From NCBI GenBank assembly GCA_022511505.1, contig JAFLTK010000344.1:1-36730 (forward strand): 36,730 bases of DNA, written 5' to 3'. This document shows, piece after piece, positions 738 through 12,539 of the stretch. How positions within the stretch are numbered: position 1 is the stretch's first letter; every line of letters begins with the position of its first letter. A program made the position numbers and the translations under genes. This DNA comes from Muribaculaceae bacterium (GTDB lineage: Bacteria > Bacteroidota > Bacteroidia > Bacteroidales > Muribaculaceae). The notes beneath the pieces are model-generated. The model searched no databases. It worked only from the letters and a program-made list of their open reading frames with translations, and was not told the origin of the DNA.

Positions 738-3700
738 TCAGATGAAAGTTTCTGAGATTATGATTGATGGAGTGCCGGCGTCGACTTTTGACGAGTCGGT
801 GGCCGAGTCGTGGTGGTATTCCTCGACGAGGTCGCCGATGCGATGGGCGAGGATGCGCGCGTGGGCCTTAATCTTGGCGCGGTCGTTTTTGTATTCCTGG
901 GAGATGGTTTTGAGCGCACGGGGCAGCCGGGCGTAGGTTCCCTCCTTGATGTAACCGCGCAGGATGCCGCAGTCGCGCTTTAGCGCCTCGTCTTCACAGT
1001 TTTGCTCGATGGTGCGCAAGAACTTGTCGGCGGTTTGGGCTGTCTTGTCGAGGTTGGCGTTTTTGATAGAATCAACATCGGTCTGGGCCTGAAGGTCACG
1101 GTTAAACAGGTTGACGGCGCGGTTTACCTGAGAATAGTGCTCGTCGGCGTTGTTGAACGGGATGGCCTCCTCGTCGGGCTTGGCTTTCAGATAGCCCACA
1201 GCCGAGAGGAAGTCCATGGCGAGCGGGTCGCGGTCGCCGTTGACAAGATAGAACTCGGTTTTGAGTTTTGATGAAACGAAAACGACGGTCGAGCCTGAAT
1301 GTTTACCGGTATCACGCATGACGCGGCTTTTGAGCGGCAGGTTCTTTATGCGATGATACCACTCACGGTTGGTGTTGTAGAGGTGACGCAACTCGCGCAG
1401 CAGAGCAATCTTCTTGTCGACAATATCCTTGACGTTGCTGTCAAAGAGGTTGAAATCCTTGACAATCTCCTCGCGCGAATAGATCTGAGCATCCTCGCCA
1501 AATGCCGAGTGGAACCCTTGCAACTTGATAAGCGCATTTTTATAGAGTTGAATCTGCTTGTCGCCGTCGGGCGAGGGATAGAACATGTAGTTGTAAATAT
1601 TGTCGGCTACCGAGCCGATGCGGTTCACTCGGCCAATGCGTTGCATCAGTCGTGAAGCGTTCCACGGCGAGTCATAGTTGATGATGACGTTGGAGCGGTG
1701 GAGGTTGACACCCTCGGCAAGCACGTCGCTCGTGATTATGATAGAATAGCGGTTTTGTTGCTTGTCGGCGGGGACATTGGCGTCAAAGTTGGCTTTGACA
1801 GTGTCAAAGAGGGAGTTGCGGTTGGCAGCCGTGATTTTGAGAACGTCGGTGCGACCTCGCTTTTTGGTCAGGAAGTCATAGAGATAGTTGACGGTGTCGA
1901 CGCTCTCTGAGAAGATGACGAGTTTGCCCGTGGGATTGATTTGGGTAGATACAAACTCGGGAATTGACGCGGTGAAGCGGTCGAGTTTGGGGTCATCGGT
2001 GATGCCGTCCCATTCGGCATTTAGACGCTCGAGGACGTCGCGGTCGTTATGCAACATCTTGATAAATTTCTCGTCAAAGTCCTCGGCCTTGTAAAGGAAA
2101 TCGTTTTTGGAGTAACCTTTGTTCAGGATGTAATCGGTAATCTCGTCGAGGTCCATCCCCTTGAACATCATGTCTTTGATGTTGAGCTCAGGGGCGATTA
2201 TTACCTTGTCTTCCTCAAACATGCGAATCATGTCGTTGGTAATCCTGAGCAACGTTTTCAGAGACTTCTTGAAGGCGAAGAAACTGCTCTCGAGTCGCTT
2301 GACCATGTGAACGCGGTATATACCGGCGAGACTCTGACCAATAACGACGGCGTTCTTGTATTTCTCGCGATGGGGCGACTTGAGAAACTCGACGGCGCGA
2401 TAGCGGGCGTAGGTGATATGCTCGGGGGCGCGCTCGTCGGTCAGCGCGGTCAAGGTGTTGGTAAAGCTCTTGCTGAGTGAAAGAGTGAGGCCATACTCCA
2501 GCTCCTTGGGCGGAAGGATGTTGGGGAAGACGATGCCTTGGCGCTTGAGGTCAACCTTATAGTCGGGGTCGTTGAGAATGTTTCTCCTTGTGCGGCGAAT
2601 GGTTACTTTGTCGATGACCTTGTCGCGAATATCTTCATAGATGCGATCAACGTCGCGGCTTACGTCTCGCCTGTCGCGTTCGCGCATCAGTTTCTTGTAG
2701 TTGGCTATATGGGGCGCAAAGAATTGCTTGAGGTTGGTGATTCCGTCGATTGTCGACCGCTGGGTGTCCTGGAAAAGTTGCAATTGGTTGAGAAGGTCCT
2801 CGGGGCGGTTGTTGAGCGGAGTTGCCGAGAGAAGCATCACCTTCTTGCGGTACGACTTCAGCAGGCCGGGATTGGTGCAAGGCGACTTGCAGATTTTCTG
2901 CAACTCGTCATAGCGGTTTGACGTGTCGGTTCTGAACTGGTGGGCCTCATCGACGATGATGAGATCAAAGTTCTCTTTGTCATGGTAGTTGCCTTTGCCT
3001 TCAAGAACTTTGGATAGGCTGCCATTGGTGATGAATTGAGCCTTGCGAGTGATGGCAAAAAGTTCAAACGTTGACTTCCAGTTGTCCTCAAGAGCGGGCG
3101 GATAAACAACGAGAATACGGGTATTCTTGCCGTTGGCCTCTATGAAGCGCTTGGCAATCATTGTGGCAATCATCGTCTTACCGAGACCTACGACGTCCGA
3201 CAGGAACAAGCCGTTGTGTTGCAACAGCATTTGATAGCCCTGAACCACGGCGTCCTTCTGATACTTCAATTCCATCACGCCTTTGGGCAACTGGATGTTG
3301 AAGTCTTCTTCAACCTGGTCGCCGAAGGCCTCGATGAGCACCTTGATATAAATCTCGTAGGGCGACGGCTGATAATCACCAAGATAGGTGCCTTCCATCG
3401 GGCCCTTTAACTCGTCGAGAGTCAGGGGCACGCTCTCGTTCCACAAAGTCTCAAATTCCTCATGACAGAAATGGACGTCGTCATAATCCTTCATTGCCAC
3501 ATTCAGTTCATATCGAGGGGCTTTTGTAAGACCCAACCCTGCGTCTGAAATGTTAGAAGACCCCATAATCACCCAACCGTCGGAATGTTCGGTGTGATTT
3601 TCAGGGAGGCAGAGGTAGAATTTGGCGTGCAGATTCTTGGTAGGGTGCAGTCGCAATTGAAGCCGGCCATCGGCAAGGTCTTGACAGAATTGCAAAATTC

Positions 3701-4025
3701 CTTCCTCGACCTCCTTGCTATAATTGGAATCGACAATATCTTGCTTGAAATGGTCGTTGAACAATTCCTTGGCGCGCTCGGGGGCTTCGAGCATTTCCCA
3801 TCCGAGATTATGTTTGCGGAAGATGCTGTCGGCATTAATACCAACGAGAATACGTATTTCAGAGATATTCCCAAGTTCGCGGCGCAACTTGAAATAACCC
3901 GACGAGCGAAAGTAACCAACCACGGCAAGAAACCGCTTGAAGTTTTCGCCCATACCTTCAGAGATCCCCTTGAATTTGTCAAACAGGGTATTAGATGGAG
4001 TATTATTAAAAAATTTGGTGTTCAT
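738..4025 (-). CDS. PLD-like nuclease domain + SNF2-family DEAH helicase
   Basis: 1095 aa; PLD HxK motif (NLHAKFYL...VIMGSSNISDAGL), Walker A-like DVVGLGKT, IIVDEAH box, C-terminal helicase VLAEGVNLHRSNVIINYDSPWNASRLMQRIGRVNRIGS. Confidence 0.9.
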   Translation of the reverse strand: MNTKFFNNTPSNTLFDKFKGISEGMGENFKRFLAVVGYFRSSGYFKLRRELGNISEIRILVGINADSIFRKHNLGWEMLEAPERAKELFNDHFKQDIVDSNYSKEVEEGILQFCQDLADGRLQLRLHPTKNLHAKFYLCLPENHTEHSDGWVIMGSSNISDAGLGLTKAPRYELNVAMKDYDDVHFCHEEFETLWNESVPLTLDELKGPMEGTYLGDYQPSPYEIYIKVLIEAFGDQVEEDFNIQLPKGVMELKYQKDAVVQGYQMLLQHNGLFLSDVVGLGKTMIATMIAKRFIEANGKNTRILVVYPPALEDNWKSTFELFAITRKAQFITNGSLSKVLEGKGNYHDKENFDLIIVDEAHQFRTDTSNRYDELQKICKSPCTNPGLLKSYRKKVMLLSATPLNNRPEDLLNQLQLFQDTQRSTIDGITNLKQFFAPHIANYKKLMRERDRRDVSRDVDRIYEDIRDKVIDKVTIRRTRRNILNDPDYKVDLKRQGIVFPNILPPKELEYGLTLSLSKSFTNTLTALTDERAPEHITYARYRAVEFLKSPHREKYKNAVVIGQSLAGIYRVHMVKRLESSFFAFKKSLKTLLRITNDMIRMFEEDKVIIAPELNIKDMMFKGMDLDEITDYILNKGYSKNDFLYKAEDFDEKFIKMLHNDRDVLERLNAEWDGITDDPKLDRFTASIPEFVSTQINPTGKLVIFSESVDTVNYLYDFLTKKRGRTDVLKITAANRNSLFDTVKANFDANVPADKQQNRYSIIITSDVLAEGVNLHRSNVIINYDSPWNASRLMQRIGRVNRIGSVADNIYNYMFYPSPDGDKQIQLYKNALIKLQGFHSAFGEDAQIYSREEIVKDFNLFDSNVKDIVDKKIALLRELRHLYNTNREWYHRIKNLPLKSRVMRDTGKHSGSTVVFVSSKLKTEFYLVNGDRDPLAMDFLSAVGYLKAKPDEEAIPFNNADEHYSQVNRAVNLFNRDLQAQTDVDSIKNANLDKTAQTADKFLRTIEQNCEDEALKRDCGILRGYIKEGTYARLPRALKTISQEYKNDRAKIKAHARILAHRIGDLVEEYHHDSATDSSKVDAGTPSIIISETFI

Positions 4026-4457: not shown

Positions 4458-5177
4458 CTATTTGAATGCTATGATGACGAGGCAGACGGCGGCGATGACC
4501 AGAGCGACGGTTGAGATGATGGAAAGTATCGATGGGCGCGCGGGCGCGGGCTTTGCGGCTGTGGTTGCGTCGGTGAGCGCCTGACGGATGGAGCGGTTGA
4601 CATTGACCATGGCGGCGGTCTGTGACTCGGTGACGGCCTGAATTAAGGTGTCGAGTCTCGCGGGTATGTCGGCGAGTTGTTGAAGTTGCTCGGCAAGGTG
4701 GGGCATGCGGTCGAGGCTTTGGTTGAAGCGTGCGGCGATTTGGTCGTTAATTGCTTCAAACGAGCGGCGTTCTTCGTCGAGGACGCGCTTGAACCGGTCG
4801 CTTTGCTCGACGAGAAGGTGGCTGAGGTTGTCGACATTGGCGGCGGTGGAATCTTTCAGTCGGGCGAGAGCGTCGCGCATGGTTGCATCGGTGACGGCGG
4901 CAGCGCGAGTCAACTCGTTGAGGTATGTATCGACGAGCGTGTTGATTTTCTGCAATGTAACGGCTTGGAGTTCAGCCATCTTGGCGAACTCGGCTTCTGA
5001 TAGGGCAGGCGATGCCGGGCCGGCTCCCGATTGGCCGAGACGGTCGATTGAGTCGCCAAGTCGACGAGAATTTTCGGCAAACGAGGCGTTGAAGCGGTTG
5101 AGGTTGATGACGAGCATCGAGATGGCGTCGGCCGTAGAGTCGGTTGTGACCGGGGTGTTGTCGGGGGTCTTGTTCAT
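4458..5177 (-). CDS. Coiled-coil protein with single C-terminal TM segment (tail-anchored topology)
   Basis: 239 aa; heptad-like middle, C-terminal ILSIISTVALVIAAVCLVIIAFK; ATGA overlap with upstream gene. Confidence 0.75.
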   Translation of the reverse strand: MNKTPDNTPVTTDSTADAISMLVINLNRFNASFAENSRRLGDSIDRLGQSGAGPASPALSEAEFAKMAELQAVTLQKINTLVDTYLNELTRAAAVTDATMRDALARLKDSTAANVDNLSHLLVEQSDRFKRVLDEERRSFEAINDQIAARFNQSLDRMPHLAEQLQQLADIPARLDTLIQAVTESQTAAMVNVNRSIRQALTDATTAAKPAPARPSILSIISTVALVIAAVCLVIIAFK

Positions 5178-5773
5178 CAGTTAAAAGAGACTTTACAAGT
5201 TCGTTCAATAATCCAGCGGTTGCCGGCGAGAGTTGCGATGCCGGGCTGCTCGACGACCATGGCGACGGCGCTGACGGGGGGGACGTCGCCAACGATGGTG
5301 ACGGCTTTGTCGAGGCCGTCGTTGGTCTGCAACGTCTTGAGATTCACCGGTTCAAAGAGCATAGATGCCGAGGGATTGGCGGGATTGGCTCGGGCGATGA
5401 ATTTGACGGTATAGTCAGGGGCGTCGAGAATTGCGCGGAAATAGCCTTGGCCGCTGTTGATGACGTTGGCAAAATAGCGTGTGCCCGAAGTATCGGGGGC
5501 GGTGGCTTCCTTTGAGGGTTCATCAGCCGTTTTTGCGGGCGCGGGCGCGGCGGCTTTGGCCGTGATGGAGAGCAACTCGCGCGATAAACGCTGGCTGTCG
5601 GCTTGGAGCGCAGTCAGTTGGAACTCGAGGGCGTCGACGCGGTTTTGCAAGTTGTTGCGGTCGGTGGCGAGATTGGCGACGGTCTCTTTGAGCTTCTTTA
5701 TCTCAGCGGCGTGTTTGCCAAAGAGGTAGACAACCGCGCATGCGATGAATATTATTAATAGAATTGCAACCAT
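5177..5773 (-). CDS. N-terminally membrane-anchored coiled-coil protein of unknown function
   Basis: 198 aa; MVAILLIIFIACAVVYLFGK TM segment, coiled coil (KLKETVANLATDRNNLQNRVDALEFQLTALQAD), Ala/Pro linker, small C-terminal domain. Confidence 0.75.
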   Translation of the reverse strand: MVAILLIIFIACAVVYLFGKHAAEIKKLKETVANLATDRNNLQNRVDALEFQLTALQADSQRLSRELLSITAKAAAPAPAKTADEPSKEATAPDTSGTRYFANVINSGQGYFRAILDAPDYTVKFIARANPANPSASMLFEPVNLKTLQTNDGLDKAVTIVGDVPPVSAVAMVVEQPGIATLAGNRWIIERTCKVSFN

Positions 5774-5789
5774 TTTTATTTAATTAGAG

Positions 5790-5870
5790 CACACTCAAAT
5801 TAAAGTTTAAAGTTTTGAGTTTAAAGTTTAGAGTCGTCTTTAACTTGAGAGTGAAGTTTAAAGTTTAACG
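5790..5870. repeat. Intergenic AAGTTTAAAGTT-type repeat cluster
   Basis: attaaagtttaaagttttgagtttaaagtttagag...agtgaagtttaaagttta; related motif recurs at 24409-24508. Confidence 0.5.
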
Positions 5871-5911
5871 ATGGCAAAACTTTATTCTTTAACGAGAGTT
5901 AATGCGCTGAT

Positions 5912-8900
5912 TTATTTAGAGTTTAAAGGTGAGTTGCCAATTTCGGCCGAGATGGCGTTCATCGAGCCGAGGATTGGATAGAAGAACGGCGACTCCTCGA
6001 TGGGGTCGTCAATTTCAGATTCAGTCAGGCGGCGCTTGATGCCCTTGGCAAGGAAAGTGTCGAGGTCGAGGCGACCAACTTGGCGAGCAATGGCGAGCGC
6101 GCGCTTGCCGACGCCGAAATTGTCGTCAAAATTCATCTGCTCGTTGACGCGGTCGAGGAAGTCATAGAAGTCGAGCACCTCGGCTTTGATTTGGGCGAGT
6201 GCATCGGGCGAGAGGGTGGCGTAGGTGTCGGTCGACGAGGCGACGCCGCGCTTGTCGCCTATGATGACTACTCGCCGGGCGTCGGAGGTATCGGTGTCCT
6301 CAGAGGTGGCGAGGATGCCGCCCTTGCAGGTCGATTCTTTGGGCGATGCTCCCTCTTGCAGACCGAGAATTTCGAGGCGACGGTCGCCGTAGGCCAAGCC
6401 CGACGACATTTCAAGCATGAGGCGTGTCAGGCGTGTCAGCAAGGCAACGTCAGGCGAGATTATTTTCAGCACACGGCTGCCGTTGCCGCTGAACGACAGG
6501 TGTCGCGGCAACTCGAGGTTGCAGGCGGCTATCAGTTTGCCAACGTGATAGATAATGGCGGCATAGAAGATGATGAAGACAATCTTGAAGTCCTCATCCT
6601 CCTGTAGGCGGAAGTTGAAGTCGAGAGCCGACGACTTGACGCCGGCACCGGCCGCAATCGAGTTGTCGCGCAGACCGAAGAGGAATGACGCCATGTTGGC
6701 CGGACGTCGGTTGGCGGGGCTATTAAAAATGTGTACAAGTTCGGTCAGGTTCATTTGACGCAGGATGTCAAGGAACGCGGCCTTATGGGTGTCGACGATG
6801 GCGTTGGCGGTGTCAATGTCGCTTAATGAGTTTTCGAACAGCGAGTTGGCGCCCATGCGGAACGAGGTGAACACCTTGACGCGCCCCTCGGCCGAGTAGG
6901 CGACGTCGGTCGTGCCGCCGCCGATGTCGATGTTGACCATTGTGGTAGCCGTGGCGACCGAGCGGTAGAAGTAACCGGCGGGTGCCTGTGACTCGGAGAT
7001 GGCTATGGTCGAGCCCGAGGGGTTGAAATAGCGACGGAAAGCGTCGTCCCACACACGGCGCAGGCGTAGCAGTCGCTTTGGGGGCATGCTGGCGGGGTAG
7101 AACCACGTCAGTCGCGTCAGTCGCGGGTCGCTGCCGTCGACGAGCGCCTTGTTGCGCATCAGCAGCATCAGCGTGTTGACGTAGGCCTCCATGATGTCGA
7201 GGGCGTCGCCGGTGCCCCATTTGATGTCGGTGTGGAAGGCGTTGTAGGGGAGGGCGCGGCGCTTGTCGTAGGTGAACGGGAGGTTGAAAAGCATCAGCGG
7301 CGCGACGCCGTTTTTCCAACTCATGGTGCGTGCGGCCGACAGGACGGTGCGTGTCGGGAAGGCAAAATCGCCGTTGCCAAGCGACAGCGGTATGAGGTCT
7401 TTCTCGATGAGGGCGAGTTCGTCCTGAAGGTCGAGCATGGCGCCGGTCTCGTCGCGCGAGGGGTTGAAAAACATGGCCGCCGGGGCGGTTGCCGTATCAA
7501 AGGCGAAAGGCGACGAAACGGCCTCGCCCTCGCGACGTGTCTCGATGTGGGTATTTGAGGTTCCGAGGTCCACGGCAAAATCGACGCGTGAGGCGGCCGG
7601 CACTTTTTTCCAACGGGGGACGAGTAGCGACGTTGCCGCCGAGGCGGTGTCGCCGGCGGTAACGCTGATATAGTCCCAATCGTGGCCTTGGAGCAAGTAG
7701 TTGACAGCCTTGATGTTATGCTCGCCGGCGGTGTCGCGGCGTTCGATGGCCGAGGGGTTGACGGCGGTATCGCCGGTATAGAATCTAAGCGACGTGGAGG
7801 CGCCGAGAGCGTCGATGCAGGTGACGTTGTAGATGCTCTCGATACCGGCCGGAGTCTTGACCGGGGGCATCAGCACGCCCGTGAATGGGTGGGCGACGAT
7901 TGAGCCCTCGTTCTTGGTCGGATTGGCGGCGCGGCCGGGGTAGTATATGCGGGAATATTCTACCGTGTTTACGCGGTTGTTTCCGCGTATAGGCACGCGC
8001 AAGGTTGCCTTGACGGCGTTGCCTGCGAGCGGCTCGAGCGATAGCATAGGTTGGCGCCCCGGGACGGTCGTAATGAGGTCGTCGATAGTGAAGTAGCGCA
8101 ATAACAGCGGTTTAACGGGGAGAAGGTAGGCGAGTTCGTCGCCGATGCCGGTGATATTGCCGTCAAAGAAAGCGGCAGTGTTGAGAGCATGGGGCACGGC
8201 GATGATAGCCGGTTCGAGGAGGTCGCTAACCGTCAGCCACGGGTATTGGGCGCCGTCAAAAGGTAGGAAACGGCTGTCGAGGTCGGTTTCGGCCTCAAAA
8301 GCTGGAGCGGCGTTGGCGGTTCCCCATGGCGCCGACGCATATTGCAACGTGCTGTAACGGTTGCCGTTTTCAATGGGGAGGACCATCGGGGGACGCTTGA
8401 CCGCGCGCGTGGCGGCGACGGTCATCTCGCTCTTGTCGAGGGCTTGGGCGCCTTTCTTTTTAAGGATGTCATATCCAAGAACTTCCACGCGGTTGCTCTC
8501 GCCGTTGTCGATAACCTCGATGGGCGAGTAAAGCGACTCGGCGTCGGCAGGAGTCAGGGCGCGTATGCGGTCCTTGAGGACGTCGTCGGTCAACGTGCGA
8601 TAGGTCAGCGACAGGTAGGCGTCGAGTTCGGGGAACAATCCGGCAAAGCCTGGAATCGATGCCCTTAATGCCATCATGTAGAGAATCATCTCCGGGTCAC
8701 GTCGGTGGAGCGGCGTGAAGTTGTTGCGGTCAAAGGGTCGGCGTTGCCCGAGGAAAATGTCGGTGACATAACTGTTGTCATTGGCGTTGCTGAAAAAGAG
8801 CGTTGCCGGCGACGTGGCGCCGATGATGTTAAGTTCGTCGGGCCCGGTGGGGTAATTAATAAGGTATATACCCTGAAGACGGTCAAAATTATAGGTGGCG

Positions 8901-9331
8901 GCGTCGGCTGTCAGGAATTTGTTCATGGCGTCGGCCATGTAGCGGTGTCCCTCGCTTGGGGCAGCGGCCATGCGCTGCTGCATGCCGGCTGGAGTCCACT
9001 TTATAATCTCAATCTTGGGGCCAATCTTGTCGCGGTTGAAAAAAATCTCGGCAACGTCGAGCGTGTCAGAAACCATCTTATGGTGGATGGTCGAGCCCTC
9101 AAGGGGAGTCGGGTCGCCGGCACTGCGACGCACGACCTCGGCAAACGCTGTCTTTATCAGGTCGATGCGCGCCAGAGGTGACGGGATTGAGGTAATCTCG
9201 TGGGATGCCGAGGCGCCGTCGGGGTCGGCGATGGTGTCGCGGGCCGTAGAGTTGTAGGGATAGGCCGGAGTTGCCTGCCATCCTTGCAAGGTTGTGGAAC
9301 CGTCTTTATATAGTCTGAAAACCTTTGACAT
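5912..9331 (-). CDS. Large Hsp70/actin-fold ATPase-like protein
   Basis: 1139 aa; phosphate-1 motif VDFAVDLGTSNTHIETR, phosphate-2 motif MVNIDIGGGTTDVAY, adenosine-type motif LSFSGNGSRVL in the C-terminal half; ~560-aa N-terminal region without recognised domain. Confidence 0.8.
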   Translation of the reverse strand: MSKVFRLYKDGSTTLQGWQATPAYPYNSTARDTIADPDGASASHEITSIPSPLARIDLIKTAFAEVVRRSAGDPTPLEGSTIHHKMVSDTLDVAEIFFNRDKIGPKIEIIKWTPAGMQQRMAAAPSEGHRYMADAMNKFLTADAATYNFDRLQGIYLINYPTGPDELNIIGATSPATLFFSNANDNSYVTDIFLGQRRPFDRNNFTPLHRRDPEMILYMMALRASIPGFAGLFPELDAYLSLTYRTLTDDVLKDRIRALTPADAESLYSPIEVIDNGESNRVEVLGYDILKKKGAQALDKSEMTVAATRAVKRPPMVLPIENGNRYSTLQYASAPWGTANAAPAFEAETDLDSRFLPFDGAQYPWLTVSDLLEPAIIAVPHALNTAAFFDGNITGIGDELAYLLPVKPLLLRYFTIDDLITTVPGRQPMLSLEPLAGNAVKATLRVPIRGNNRVNTVEYSRIYYPGRAANPTKNEGSIVAHPFTGVLMPPVKTPAGIESIYNVTCIDALGASTSLRFYTGDTAVNPSAIERRDTAGEHNIKAVNYLLQGHDWDYISVTAGDTASAATSLLVPRWKKVPAASRVDFAVDLGTSNTHIETRREGEAVSSPFAFDTATAPAAMFFNPSRDETGAMLDLQDELALIEKDLIPLSLGNGDFAFPTRTVLSAARTMSWKNGVAPLMLFNLPFTYDKRRALPYNAFHTDIKWGTGDALDIMEAYVNTLMLLMRNKALVDGSDPRLTRLTWFYPASMPPKRLLRLRRVWDDAFRRYFNPSGSTIAISESQAPAGYFYRSVATATTMVNIDIGGGTTDVAYSAEGRVKVFTSFRMGANSLFENSLSDIDTANAIVDTHKAAFLDILRQMNLTELVHIFNSPANRRPANMASFLFGLRDNSIAAGAGVKSSALDFNFRLQEDEDFKIVFIIFYAAIIYHVGKLIAACNLELPRHLSFSGNGSRVLKIISPDVALLTRLTRLMLEMSSGLAYGDRRLEILGLQEGASPKESTCKGGILATSEDTDTSDARRVVIIGDKRGVASSTDTYATLSPDALAQIKAEVLDFYDFLDRVNEQMNFDDNFGVGKRALAIARQVGRLDLDTFLAKGIKRRLTESEIDDPIEESPFFYPILGSMNAISAEIGNSPLNSK

Positions 9332-9367
9332 AGGGGAGTAGTTGGAGGTGTGGGAGTAGTGGGGCAG

Positions 9368-10768
9368 TTAGAGTTTTTCGGCGACGAGCCGCTCGGTAGC
9401 ACGCCACCACATTTCGAGCCATCGGGCCTCGGGCGCGCGTGAGGCGGTTTTGCCGACGGCGGTGTTGAGGCGCGAGGCAATGAGCGGATAGTCAGACGCG
9501 AGCGTCATCACGCGGCGCGGGGCGACCCCGTTGACCAAATCAAACGGGTGGCTGCCGGGCTCGGGGTTAAAGAGGTCGAGCGAGCGGCGGTTGCCGCGTA
9601 TTTCGAGTATCCACTGGCGATATTGGGAGGCAATCTCTTTGAGGGCGCTCATAAAGCGGCTGCTGTATAGGCTCGAGAAATTGCCTTTCTTGGCGTTGTT
9701 GGCGTCAAAAGTGTCGCTGCTGAAATAATTGAAGTTATCGAGCAGGGCGTTGGCAAGCAGGCTGAACTGCACCATCGGACCGTAGAGTTCGCGTCGCATC
9801 TCGTCATAAAACGAGTCAAAGGAGACATCGTCCTTCAGGTCGCGCAATCCGAGCTCTTTGCTGACGCGGCTGTCGGCGCCGACGGTGTTGACAAAGTCGA
9901 CGATGGCCGTCGCGCCGAGGAACTCAATCAGGTGGGCGTCATTGCGCTGGGCGGCTCCGCCCTCGTGGTTGTCATATACGCGAGACATCTCGTCGCCCAG
10001 AAAGTAGAGCGCGTTAATCGAGCCGCTACGGGCAATGTTGTTCTCGTAGTAGGCAAGCGCCGAGCGAGTTTTGGATATAAATGTTGCCGAGTCAATCTCG
10101 CTGTTGCTGTCGCGGAACACGGTGAAATAGGGCAACACGGTCAGCGCGCCGATGGTGGCGTTGTTGATGATGCCAAAGTTGGGGAATGCCGTTGTTGAGC
10201 GTAATGTCTTGAGCAACAATGGAAAACCGCTGGCACCCGTGCCGCCAAAGATTGAACTGATGATGAAAATCTTGTCGCCGGCCTCAAATCGCGACATAAG
10301 CGTGGCAAAGTCGGGCGACGTTGCAATCTGGTTGAGGACCACGCTGCCGATGTTGGGGTTGCCTTTGAACCCCACTTCCATCGAGGCCGCGAGGTTCTTG
10401 TCGCTGAAAAGCATGCGGGTGATGGCCTTGTCGGCGCGTGACATCGAGGCATAGTCAATGAAACGGCCAAAGGAGCGGTCGTCGGTGTCGCGCACCCTCA
10501 ATGTGAACGACGGCAACGCCTCGACCACGCCCGTGCGGAAAAACCGCGACGGGTTCCCCTCGGGGAAGGTCTGCGTCCCGGCAACCGAGGCATAATTCTG
10601 CAACAGGGTGATGGTGCGTGTCAGGTCGGCATTGGATGCGTCGGGGTCGATGACCACGGGCACAATCTCGTCAACATCCATTTTGACTCCCGAGGCCATG
10701 AGCCACGTCAACGACCGCAACACTCGCGAGCCGGTCCCTCCGATAGCAAACAGGAAAAGTTTTGACAT
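9368..10768 (-). CDS. Tubulin/FtsZ-like protein
   Basis: 466 aa; N-terminal KLFLFAIGGTGSRVLRSL and glycine-rich signature FIISSIFGGTGASGFPLLLKTLR, comparable to the tubulin GGGTGSG loop. Confidence 0.75.
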   Translation of the reverse strand: MSKLFLFAIGGTGSRVLRSLTWLMASGVKMDVDEIVPVVIDPDASNADLTRTITLLQNYASVAGTQTFPEGNPSRFFRTGVVEALPSFTLRVRDTDDRSFGRFIDYASMSRADKAITRMLFSDKNLAASMEVGFKGNPNIGSVVLNQIATSPDFATLMSRFEAGDKIFIISSIFGGTGASGFPLLLKTLRSTTAFPNFGIINNATIGALTVLPYFTVFRDSNSEIDSATFISKTRSALAYYENNIARSGSINALYFLGDEMSRVYDNHEGGAAQRNDAHLIEFLGATAIVDFVNTVGADSRVSKELGLRDLKDDVSFDSFYDEMRRELYGPMVQFSLLANALLDNFNYFSSDTFDANNAKKGNFSSLYSSRFMSALKEIASQYRQWILEIRGNRRSLDLFNPEPGSHPFDLVNGVAPRRVMTLASDYPLIASRLNTAVGKTASRAPEARWLEMWWRATERLVAEKL

Positions 10769-10786
10769 AGGATAACTTAATGAAAA

Positions 10787-11239
10787 TCAAAATGGAGCGC
10801 GCGAGCAGTTGCTGCTGAACCACTTAACGCAATAGGAAAGGATGACAAACAAGACTATTGACAGGATGGCGTTGGCCACGCCAAACATTATCAGGTCGTT
10901 TTCATAGATGGGTAACGGCGTGTGCAGCCCCGTTGCCGGGTCGACGCTGACCATCTTGCCGTCAGCCATGTGTCCGGCAAGCCACTGCCAACCGACGACA
11001 AAGTTTATCGCCGCGTTTATGGCCAGAAAGATGAACCAACTGCCAAAGTTATTGAAATTGGGGTAGTTGATAATAAAGTAGAAGAGCACCACTATCAGTG
11101 CAGTGATGCCAAGGACGCTCAACAACATCGGCCAGGTCATGTCGCCGGGCTGAAGCGCCGAGGCTGTTCCGAGCAGATAGGAGTCGAGCGTGCCGCCAAA
11201 GAGGCCGCTGAACAGACTGTAAATTCCTGTCAATATCAT
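10787..11239 (-). CDS. Small polytopic membrane protein of unknown function
   Basis: 150 aa with at least three hydrophobic spans (MLLSVLGITALIVVLFYFII, WFIFLAINAAINFVVGW, IMFGVANAILSIVLFVILSYCV); start abuts the stop of the upstream gene. Confidence 0.75.
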   Translation of the reverse strand: MILTGIYSLFSGLFGGTLDSYLLGTASALQPGDMTWPMLLSVLGITALIVVLFYFIINYPNFNNFGSWFIFLAINAAINFVVGWQWLAGHMADGKMVSVDPATGLHTPLPIYENDLIMFGVANAILSIVLFVILSYCVKWFSSNCSRAPF

Positions 11240-12466
11240 TTATTTGCGTTTTAATTCAAAAGTGAAATCGGTCAATTCATTCTTGTTGTTGAAGCCCTCG
11301 ACAACGCCCTGAAGCAGAGCGCCGATGCCGACGGTGCGGTCAAGTCGTCCCTCGACATCGCTGATGCCGCTGTCGTCGGTCTGCTCGACCCACTCGGGGA
11401 GCGCCGGCGGGGTGAACAGGATTTTCTCCTGGTCGATGCGCGAATTTCGGTCGATGGCCACCTCGAGGAAAACGCTGTAAGGCGAGTCGGGGTTGGTGAC
11501 TTGGCCGATGCGCTTAATCGACATGCCGGGAACGAGGCCCGTGCCGCGGTAGCAGGCCGTGTCAAGTTGGGTGGCCTCGGGTTGGAGGGTGGGGCGCATG
11601 TCGGCGCTGATGTAGAGGGTGTATTGGTTGCCGATGGCGGTGACGGTGTTGCCGTTCATCGCCTGATTGGTGACGCGATAGTTGACCGCAACGGGTCGGG
11701 TGAAACCGGCCATTTCGCGGAAACCGTGGCCCACGATATTCTCGGCCGGAACGTCGCGCAACAGCGTGGCGAGATAGTCGCGTCGACCGGCGAGCCAGAT
11801 GTAGTAGGGGCGTGGTGCGCCGTCAAGAGTTGTCGTGCGGCCGTCGGGGTAGAAATAACGGCCCGAAAACGGCGACTCCATTTTCAAGACAACGATGCCG
11901 AGCGAGGGGACACGCTTGATGGTCGCGCTGACGGCGTTGGAGATGGCGATGCGGCGGTTGTTGAGTTGTGACGCGGTCGACGCGCCGCCGGTAGTGTTAA
12001 GGTCTAAGATGCAGTCACTGACAAAGATAGAGGTAGTCGTGTCGCTGACCGAGTCGAGAAAGCGGCCAATCATGGCGGCCATGTCAGAGTTGGAGCGGTT
12101 GCCCCCGGCAGCCGCAAAAGCCTCGGGAGTCAAATCGCCGATGAAATTGGACAGGCTGCCGCCGTAGGGGATGACGGTCGAGTTAATGTAGTAGAGGCGC
12201 GTAGTGTCGGCATGCTCGCCAAGGCGGCTGACGTAACTGTAGACAGCATCGGTCAGCGACGCGTCGGGAGCCATGTAACCGTCCATGCTGCCCGAATTTT
12301 CGACAAAAACATTCAGCGCCTGCGCCGGGATAGAGTCGGTCACCTCGCTGTCGGGCGAAATGACCTCAATCTGCGACCCGCCGCAACTTGCAACGGCAAA
12401 AGCAACTACCGCGGCAATCGCCGATTTATAGCAAAAGTCCTTGATTGACAAATGAAACTGTTTCAC
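11240..12466 (-). CDS. vWA-like lipoprotein
   Basis: Lipobox AFAVASCGG; MIDAS-like LNVFVENSGSMDGYM; IFVSDCILDL further on. Track ORF begins at TTG 12514, but a TATCTTTG -7 box lies at 12499-12492 and a GTG at 12466 gives VKQFHLSIKDFCYKSAIAAVVAFAVASC, so the start is revised. Confidence 0.75.
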   Translation of the reverse strand: MKQFHLSIKDFCYKSAIAAVVAFAVASCGGSQIEVISPDSEVTDSIPAQALNVFVENSGSMDGYMAPDASLTDAVYSYVSRLGEHADTTRLYYINSTVIPYGGSLSNFIGDLTPEAFAAAGGNRSNSDMAAMIGRFLDSVSDTTTSIFVSDCILDLNTTGGASTASQLNNRRIAISNAVSATIKRVPSLGIVVLKMESPFSGRYFYPDGRTTTLDGAPRPYYIWLAGRRDYLATLLRDVPAENIVGHGFREMAGFTRPVAVNYRVTNQAMNGNTVTAIGNQYTLYISADMRPTLQPEATQLDTACYRGTGLVPGMSIKRIGQVTNPDSPYSVFLEVAIDRNSRIDQEKILFTPPALPEWVEQTDDSGISDVEGRLDRTVGIGALLQGVVEGFNNKNELTDFTFELKRK

Positions 12467-12491: not shown

Positions 12492-12499
12492 CAAAGATA
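12492..12499 (-). promoter_or_regulatory. -7 box upstream of vWA/tubulin/Hsp70-like operon
   Basis: caaagata on + strand = TATCTTTG on minus, 25 nt before the GTG at 12466. Confidence 0.5.
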
Positions 12500-12539
12500 A
12501 ACATTTTTTGTCAATCTAAAAAGTCTTATTTAAAAAGTG

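Follow-up and report, generated by a model that had tools for sequence, protein, structure and literature searches.

What do six consecutive minus-strand genes encode that join a tubulin-like, an Hsp70/actin-like and a vWA-like protein to small membrane proteins? They occupy positions 12466-4458 of a 36,730-nucleotide stretch from a Muribaculaceae bacterium (contig JAFLTK010000344.1 of assembly GCA_022511505.1; hereafter the window). We propose, with a probability of about 0.5, that the window holds a reduced version of a conserved membrane machine, spread by horizontal transfer and with a probable, Zorya-like role in biological conflict, and that this version is motorless. All six co-directional, tightly packed open reading frames (ORFs) described in a first-pass annotation of this DNA are present. 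VWA (11240..12466, 408 residues, GTG start, lipobox VASC) is a vWA/MIDAS-like lipoprotein, MIDAS being the metal-ion-dependent adhesion site, and is followed by TM (10787..11239), a 150-residue membrane protein. TUB (9368..10768, 466 residues) is a GTPase-like protein of the tubulin/FtsZ superfamily, and HSP (5912..9331, 1139 residues) a protein with an actin/Hsp70/MreB-type ATPase domain. CC (5177..5773, 198 residues) comprises an N-terminal transmembrane helix, a coiled coil and a conserved C-terminal domain, and TAIL (4458..5177, 239 residues) is a helical rod with a C-terminal membrane anchor. From these coordinates, the gaps from VWA to TAIL are 0, 18, 36 and 138 bp, followed by a 1-bp overlap, leaving HSP-CC as the sole loose joint. 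The small proteins had been annotated as multi-spanning, N-anchored and tail-anchored, which agrees with the predicted transmembrane segments (three helices in TM, residues 1-19 in CC and 220-238 in TAIL). Single-sequence searches of these small proteins gave no usable match, and the coiled-coil matches were non-specific.

The tubulin fold first suspected from a loop motif is borne out by profile and structure comparisons. As a single sequence, the window TUB matches the Pfam families Tubulin (PF00091) at 1.2e-3 and Tubulin_2 at 7e-3. Its AlphaFold2 model, built from the family alignment (pLDDT 84.9, pTM 0.87), retrieves CetZ and tubulins as the best PDB entries in Foldseek (probability 1.0, E 1.4e-4); the TM-scores are only ~0.2-0.3 because the C-terminal half differs. 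The GGTGxR loop near the N-terminus is kept in 60/60 family members and the T4-type loop GGTGAxG (GGTGASG in the window) in 59/60. The predicted fold and the T4 loop place TUB in the tubulin/FtsZ superfamily.

For HSP, single-sequence Pfam searches return weak Ppx/GppA, EutA and MreB matches around residues 790-860 and no match to the Hsp70 family (PF00012). The AlphaFold2 model of the 1139-residue protein, again from a family alignment (pLDDT 86.5, pTM 0.75), matches MreB, DnaK, Hsp70 and actin-type proteins in the PDB with E values down to 1.6e-9, in agreement with the actin/Hsp70 fold originally annotated. The C-terminal half contains the predicted actin-type ATPase, with DLGTSNT at residue 588 and DIGGGTTD at 802; the phosphate-1 and phosphate-2 motifs are found in 55/60 and 52/60 entries, fragments among them. 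HSP shares this fold and these phosphate-binding motifs with the MreB/Hsp70 (DnaK)/actin superfamily, but differs from it in three respects. Its long N-terminal region (~570 residues), which has no identifiable match in the structure search, carries an invariant signature of its own, IPSPxAR near residue 50, in 52 of 53 core members; a looser form without the final R occurs in 2 of 376 other, background proteins. The structural matches stop at the ATPase part, and no Hsp70 substrate-binding domain was detected. HSP also always adjoins a tubulin-like gene. A kinship of HSP to SrfB was considered and rejected, as no SrfB family is among the Pfam matches up to an E value of 1 and the literature leads were irrelevant.

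Pfam does not detect a vWA domain in VWA, and a profile comparison built from 17 VWA sequences was not significant. The MIDAS pattern is kept throughout the family, with [E/D]xSxS in 69/69 members (64 Glu, 5 Asp; ENSGSM, residues 56-61, in the window), Ser/Thr143 in 68/69 and Asp167 in 69/69, the latter two numbered from a TTG start at 12514. Glu for Asp at the first position is a trait of the family. An hhalign comparison of all 69 sequences with the vWA domains of BatA/BatB gave P 1.4e-4, with a probability of only 52%, over 134 columns. Together with this match, the MIDAS pattern supports the annotation of VWA as a vWA-like lipoprotein. It had also been called surface-facing, for which there is no support. 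An acidic stretch after the lipoprotein cysteine marks surface lipoproteins of Bacteroidetes; VWA has no such stretch, and a periplasm-facing position is therefore the default.

The genes recur together well beyond the window. A scan of genome contigs with TUB yielded 59 loci, and BLAST with ORF clustering of TUB loci revealed the shared gene order vWA-TM-TUB-HSP-CC-TAIL in Muribaculaceae, Bacteroides, Prevotella, Rikenellaceae, Tannerellaceae, Flavobacteriaceae, Chitinophagaceae and Leptospiraceae. Components were counted, by profiles run on all ORFs, in the 64 loci whose sequence extends 4.5 kb or more past HSP on the downstream side; a few of these duplicate one genome (L017/L103 and L022/L104 among them), and single-linkage gene calls miss some stator genes (for instance in L034). 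The segment vWA-3TM-TUB-HSP-CC is syntenic in nearly all of these loci, the TM gene being present in 58/64 and the CC family in 56/64, and in the 57 loci where TUB directly adjoins HSP, the gap between them has a median of 5 bp. Among 300 Bacteroidota genomes, strong TUB matches (E < 1e-100) occur in six, and a search in turn with HSP gives strong matches in the same six, adjacent to TUB. Two further genomes have weak TUB matches (~1e-18 to 1e-20) with no HSP call at threshold, and an iterated profile identifies the 1166- and 1301-residue neighbours of these matches as HSP homologues. The same holds for the loci with diverged tubulins (L093-L096, L101, L102, and L105 on a Synechococcus plasmid), where a protein of 1093-1325 residues lies beside the tubulin. 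In an iterated hidden Markov model search each of these large neighbours is a clear HSP homologue (pre-inclusion E values of 2.3e-76 for L101 and 4.4e-44 for L094), and all carry [ILM]P[ST]x[FW][AS] near residue 50. The Synechococcus locus even keeps the order vWA-small membrane protein-TUB-HSP-CC. The gene set centred on TUB and HSP is a conserved system, far beyond a chance cluster, and by homology the TUB-HSP pairing is obligate. The first-pass annotation had proposed gene-neighbourhood conservation as a check on the six genes; recurrence of the core order (vWA to CC) in nearly all of the 64 loci and co-occurrence of TUB and HSP in 6/6 genomes speak for such conservation.

The annotation had treated the six genes as the full machine, which they are not: in the parent system they are joined by a motor resembling ZorAB/MotAB and by a protease that is a lipoprotein, and the window has lost both. 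In relatives, TAIL is mostly ~430-580 residues long and consists of an N-terminal channel part of the MotA/TolQ/ExbB type followed by a helical tail. The channel part matches PF01618 at 7e-3, the PADLOC profile of ZorA at 1.2e-8 and the ZorA chains of PDB entries 8vvn and 8vvi at ~2e-5, these entries being type I and type II ZorAB, respectively (PMC11890865). The gene after TAIL encodes a protein that carries an OmpA-type domain, which by homology would bind peptidoglycan, and, within FWxSYxDLMTSLFF, an invariant transmembrane Asp; this protein matches PADLOC ZorB at 6.2e-15 and ZorB of 8vvn at 6.7e-14, and ZorB structures are the best of all PDB entries. The channel part is present in 45/64 loci and the ZorB-like gene in 42/64, never without the channel; in the 300 genomes of the phylum the ZorB-like family occurs in two, both operon-bearing. 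The next gene in many relatives encodes a predicted lipoprotein protease, either Trypsin_2 (2.1e-23) or retropepsin-like (1.1e-12), and some loci have extra genes for SNase (1.3e-18) or Exo_endo_phos (3.5e-10) proteins. The identities of the parts, their conserved order and the presence of the motor in most relatives are all supported by homology. In five loci (L050 19017-20822, L052 19034-20854, L054 12259-13749, L038 12830-14254 and L056 14460-16004) a further membrane protein of ~470-606 residues adjoins the ZorB-like gene or replaces it; motifs in it such as FIDNTGS and ISDFI resemble a second vWA-like domain, anchored in the membrane.

In Zorya, the motor and the motor tail are required for phage defence (PMC11890865). 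The relatives share with its ZorAB the MotA-like channel, extended by a long helical tail in the cytoplasm, and the MotB-like partner with a peptidoglycan-binding domain. They differ in that vWA, 3-TM, tubulin-like, Hsp70-like and CC proteins and a lipoprotein protease stand where Zorya has its effectors; no ZorC/ZorD, ZorE or type III effectors were found among the operon proteins scanned. The window form differs further, having neither the channel nor the ZorB-like part, whereas 42/64 relatives have the motor pair.

The reduction in the window shows in the alignments with relatives. The 239-residue TAIL aligns only after residue ~215 of full-length TAIL, and in addition at the C-terminal anchor; it corresponds to the cytoplasmic tail of the relatives' MotA/ZorA-like protein, with the channel part missing. 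CC begins at its transmembrane helix, which in relatives is preceded by a lipobox or signal and ~80-100 exported residues; by the positive-inside rule, its C-terminus is probably cytoplasmic. No ZorB-like or protease gene follows the window TAIL, and the ZorB-like family was not found in the window's own genome (89.9% complete). The closest relative, L017, belongs to a related species within the genus and shares this reduced layout (83% identity in TUB, 72% in HSP), and the TUB tree pairs the two (support 100/100) inside a motor-bearing clade, on a long branch of 0.44. The simplest history, based on homology, would be that the window's genus lost the motor, the stator and the protease, along with the exported half of CC. 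With channel, stator and exported CC part gone, the tail and the coiled coil would therefore serve the tubulin/Hsp70 pair as scaffolds tethered to the membrane, and of the components VWA and TM alone would still face the periplasm. One may ask whether the operon is instead a decaying remnant with nothing useful left. The truncated CC and TAIL, the missing ZorB-like and protease genes, the branch of 0.44 and a pseudogenised copy in another member (L023) are what such decay would leave. This explanation is nevertheless very improbable, since all six frames are open, the junctions are coupled and the nucleotide-binding motifs intact, and the same layout has been kept in the related species at the identities given above.

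The tubulin-like gene raises the possibility that the locus is a plain Bacteroidota member of an already described class. The FtsZl1 operons (Makarova and Koonin 2010, PMC2875224), predicted to serve membrane remodelling, encode FtsZ-like, vWA and OmpA-domain proteins, and the first-pass annotation had drawn an analogy to them. The analogy stands at the level of the superfamily: both sets combine a protein of the FtsZ superfamily with partners carrying vWA and OmpA domains, are associated with membranes and have a patchy distribution, and for several TUB members Tubulin_2 ranks first or second among the Pfam matches. It fails at the level of FtsZl1 membership, which we rejected on cut-off, length and neighbours, and identity with these systems is improbable. 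All tested TUB members fall below the 27-bit family cut-off of Tubulin_2 (PF13809), the model used here to stand for FtsZl1; the window protein scores 16 bits and relatives 21.7-25.7. FtsZl1 proteins are mostly long (about 1000-1200 residues) with a coiled coil, whereas TUB spans 461-594 residues across the family. In the model of the 466-residue window protein the C-terminal part is helical and the secondary structure shows no long coiled coil, a mixed picture next to the FtsZl1 layout of an N-terminal FtsZ-like domain, a long coiled coil and a helical C-terminal domain. The main text of the 2010 paper names no Hsp70, MotA or MotB (PMC2875224). A true Tubulin_2 protein of ~1210 residues, the single clear one found in the phylum, is encoded within L131 5890-14990; in its surroundings there is no Hsp70-like gene and no match to any family profile of the TUB-HSP system. 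A neighbour of the L131 gene carries IQNSGWM, resembling ENSGSM of VWA.

A second comparison is with the GAP1-N2 DO-GTPase systems (Kaur et al. 2020, PMC7159879), found mainly in Firmicutes and Actinobacteria and containing DO-GTPase, GAP1 and FNIII proteins. They likewise draw on tubulin, vWA and HSP70 components close to the membrane and have a proposed role in conflict. In those systems the tubulin/vWA and HSP70/GrpE themes are stated to be non-overlapping (PMC7159879), whereas here the tubulin-like and Hsp70-like proteins form an obligate pair, and no DO-GTPase, GAP1 or FNIII was detected in the scanned operon genes. TRAFAC GTPase and GAP1 have no Pfam match among the operon proteins, the flanks being only partly listed. 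The open-licence literature searched holds no description of a Bacteroidota system in which a tubulin and an Hsp70-like protein are paired and accompanied by vWA, consistent with the earlier remark that the composition was not a recognised one; as the search was limited to such papers, a description elsewhere is possible. The gene set, carried by both gut and environmental members of the Bacteroidota, is apparently undescribed. To our knowledge, no obligate pair of tubulin-type and actin/Hsp70-type folds with an ion motor is known in bacteria.

The presence of the system is patchy (strong matches in ~8/60 relatives, with one congener lacking it), and some genomes have two copies. Two diverged core copies are found in one genome as L087 and L088 and in another as L089 and L090, none of them motor-bearing. 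A degraded copy lies at L023 9223-12507 in a Muribaculaceae isolate, with a vWA remnant of 103 residues, an HSP of 368 residues and a reversed integrase adjoining. Directly upstream of VWA, nine loci encode a tyrosine recombinase with Phage_integrase, SAM-like and Arm domains, oriented as the operon in 8/9 and mostly 258-333 bp away, as if integrase and operon travelled as one unit; L020 6830-8032 is an example. Only one tRNA was found beside these nine loci, which is uninformative as evidence for insertion sites. Residence on phages or plasmids was rejected, as no phage record and only two plasmid records matched. Since the TUB tree also mixes families, horizontal spread is the best reading.

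These findings suggest how the machine could work. By homology, its core consists of the periplasm-facing vWA lipoprotein, the 3-TM protein, the tubulin-like GTPase, the giant Hsp70/MreB-like ATPase and the membrane coiled-coil protein. To this, most relatives add a motor module (ZorA/MotA-like channel with long cytoplasmic tail and ZorB/MotB-like OmpA-domain protein), and many an output module (trypsin-like or retropepsin-like lipoprotein protease, sometimes a staphylococcal-nuclease-like or DNase-I-like protein). The vWA lipoprotein might detect envelope disturbance jointly with those parts of CC and of the ZorB-like protein that lie in the periplasm; on the cytoplasmic side, ion flow would set the ZorA-like tail in motion. 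Together with the 3-TM protein, this tail could control assembly or disassembly of a GTP-/ATP-regulated tubulin/Hsp70-like complex at the inner membrane, which would gate a protective or lethal output. We infer periplasmic sensing, coupling of the motor tail to the nucleoside triphosphatases (NTPases), a protective output and the conflict role, probably against phage or contact attack as in Zorya. The system may represent a new kind of machine for guarding the cell envelope. Our bolder suggestion is tentative and a little less likely than not to hold in full: an undescribed machine class in which an ion-driven 5:2 motor, coupled to the obligate TUB/HSP pair, senses envelope attack and fires exchangeable periplasmic proteases or nucleases, with a core that can be kept motorless.

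Core synteny, TUB/HSP co-occurrence, the predicted folds, the Zor-like parts, the exchange of proteases and nucleases, the integrase linkage, patchiness and decay together give a conflict machine roughly an even chance. Several points weigh against it. The motor is absent in 19/64 loci, and is therefore not required for the core. Gene order is what suggests the motor-NTPase coupling. The flanks of the operon are mostly housekeeping, with few defence genes; among 162 proteins (flanking genes of relatives and the window neighbour) PADLOC gave a handful of matches (methyltransferase, mad2/mad3, Cas9 and PDC candidates), which is not decisive for a defence-island location. We know of no phage-derived trigger. 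These weak defence surroundings would suit an envelope maintenance or stress machine of the Tol-Pal/DegS kind, in which the motor and the vWA and CC lipoproteins monitor or remodel the envelope, TUB/HSP is a chaperone-like assembly device and the protease serves quality control. Trypsin-like and retropepsin-like lipoproteins are compatible with such quality control, the predicted peptidoglycan binding of the ZorB-like protein favours it, and TerD stress genes adjoin distant members. Patchy presence, absence from a congener, integrase linkage, the decay of L023, double copies and the swapping of output enzymes would all be unusual for a housekeeping device, and we regard maintenance as the less likely function, at slightly under one chance in three.

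The TerD-like genes adjoin the most diverged pairs (L101 2355-3562, L095 2219-2827 and L102 7877-8455). The gene of L101, the single one tested, matches PF02342 at 1.4e-70. The diverged pairs apparently form a second subtype tied to Ter stress-response proteins and not to a motor.

The gene set would widen the reach of Zorya-like motors and give a role to part of the long-orphan FtsZ-like proteins. It also opens the question of whether Mot/Tol/Zor-type motors use cytoskeletal NTPases to pass on signals. The unit is compact and genetically testable in culturable Bacteroidota (Flavobacterium, Chitinophaga, Maribacter, Parabacteroides and Bacteroides), and its natural variants, motor-bearing, motorless and truncated, are ready-made controls.

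Downstream of the operon and on the same strand, positions 738-4025 (-) of the window encode a 1095-residue protein with HKD/phospholipase-D and SNF2-type helicase parts. Its best PADLOC match is C3a139 (HKD+Snf2) at 8.6e-46, with DISARM DrmD-like and DpdE-like matches as well. The gene does not adjoin the operon in the sister genome, and is possibly a separate anti-phage gene.

As to control signals, the scan for promoters and terminators was uninformative, terminator-like sites occurring at the chance rate. The -7 box consensus of Bacteroidetes is TAnnTTTG, which TATCTTTG fits at 12492..12499 (-), 25 bp before the VWA start; no matching -33 box lies at the usual spacing from it, and it is a possible operon promoter. 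The HSP-CC spacer at 5774-5911 (-), 138 bp in the window, compares with a median gap of 1 bp at the same junction in relatives. It is AT-rich, with repeated ACTTTAAAC-like words, and may mark the site of an operon rearrangement dating from the truncation of CC.

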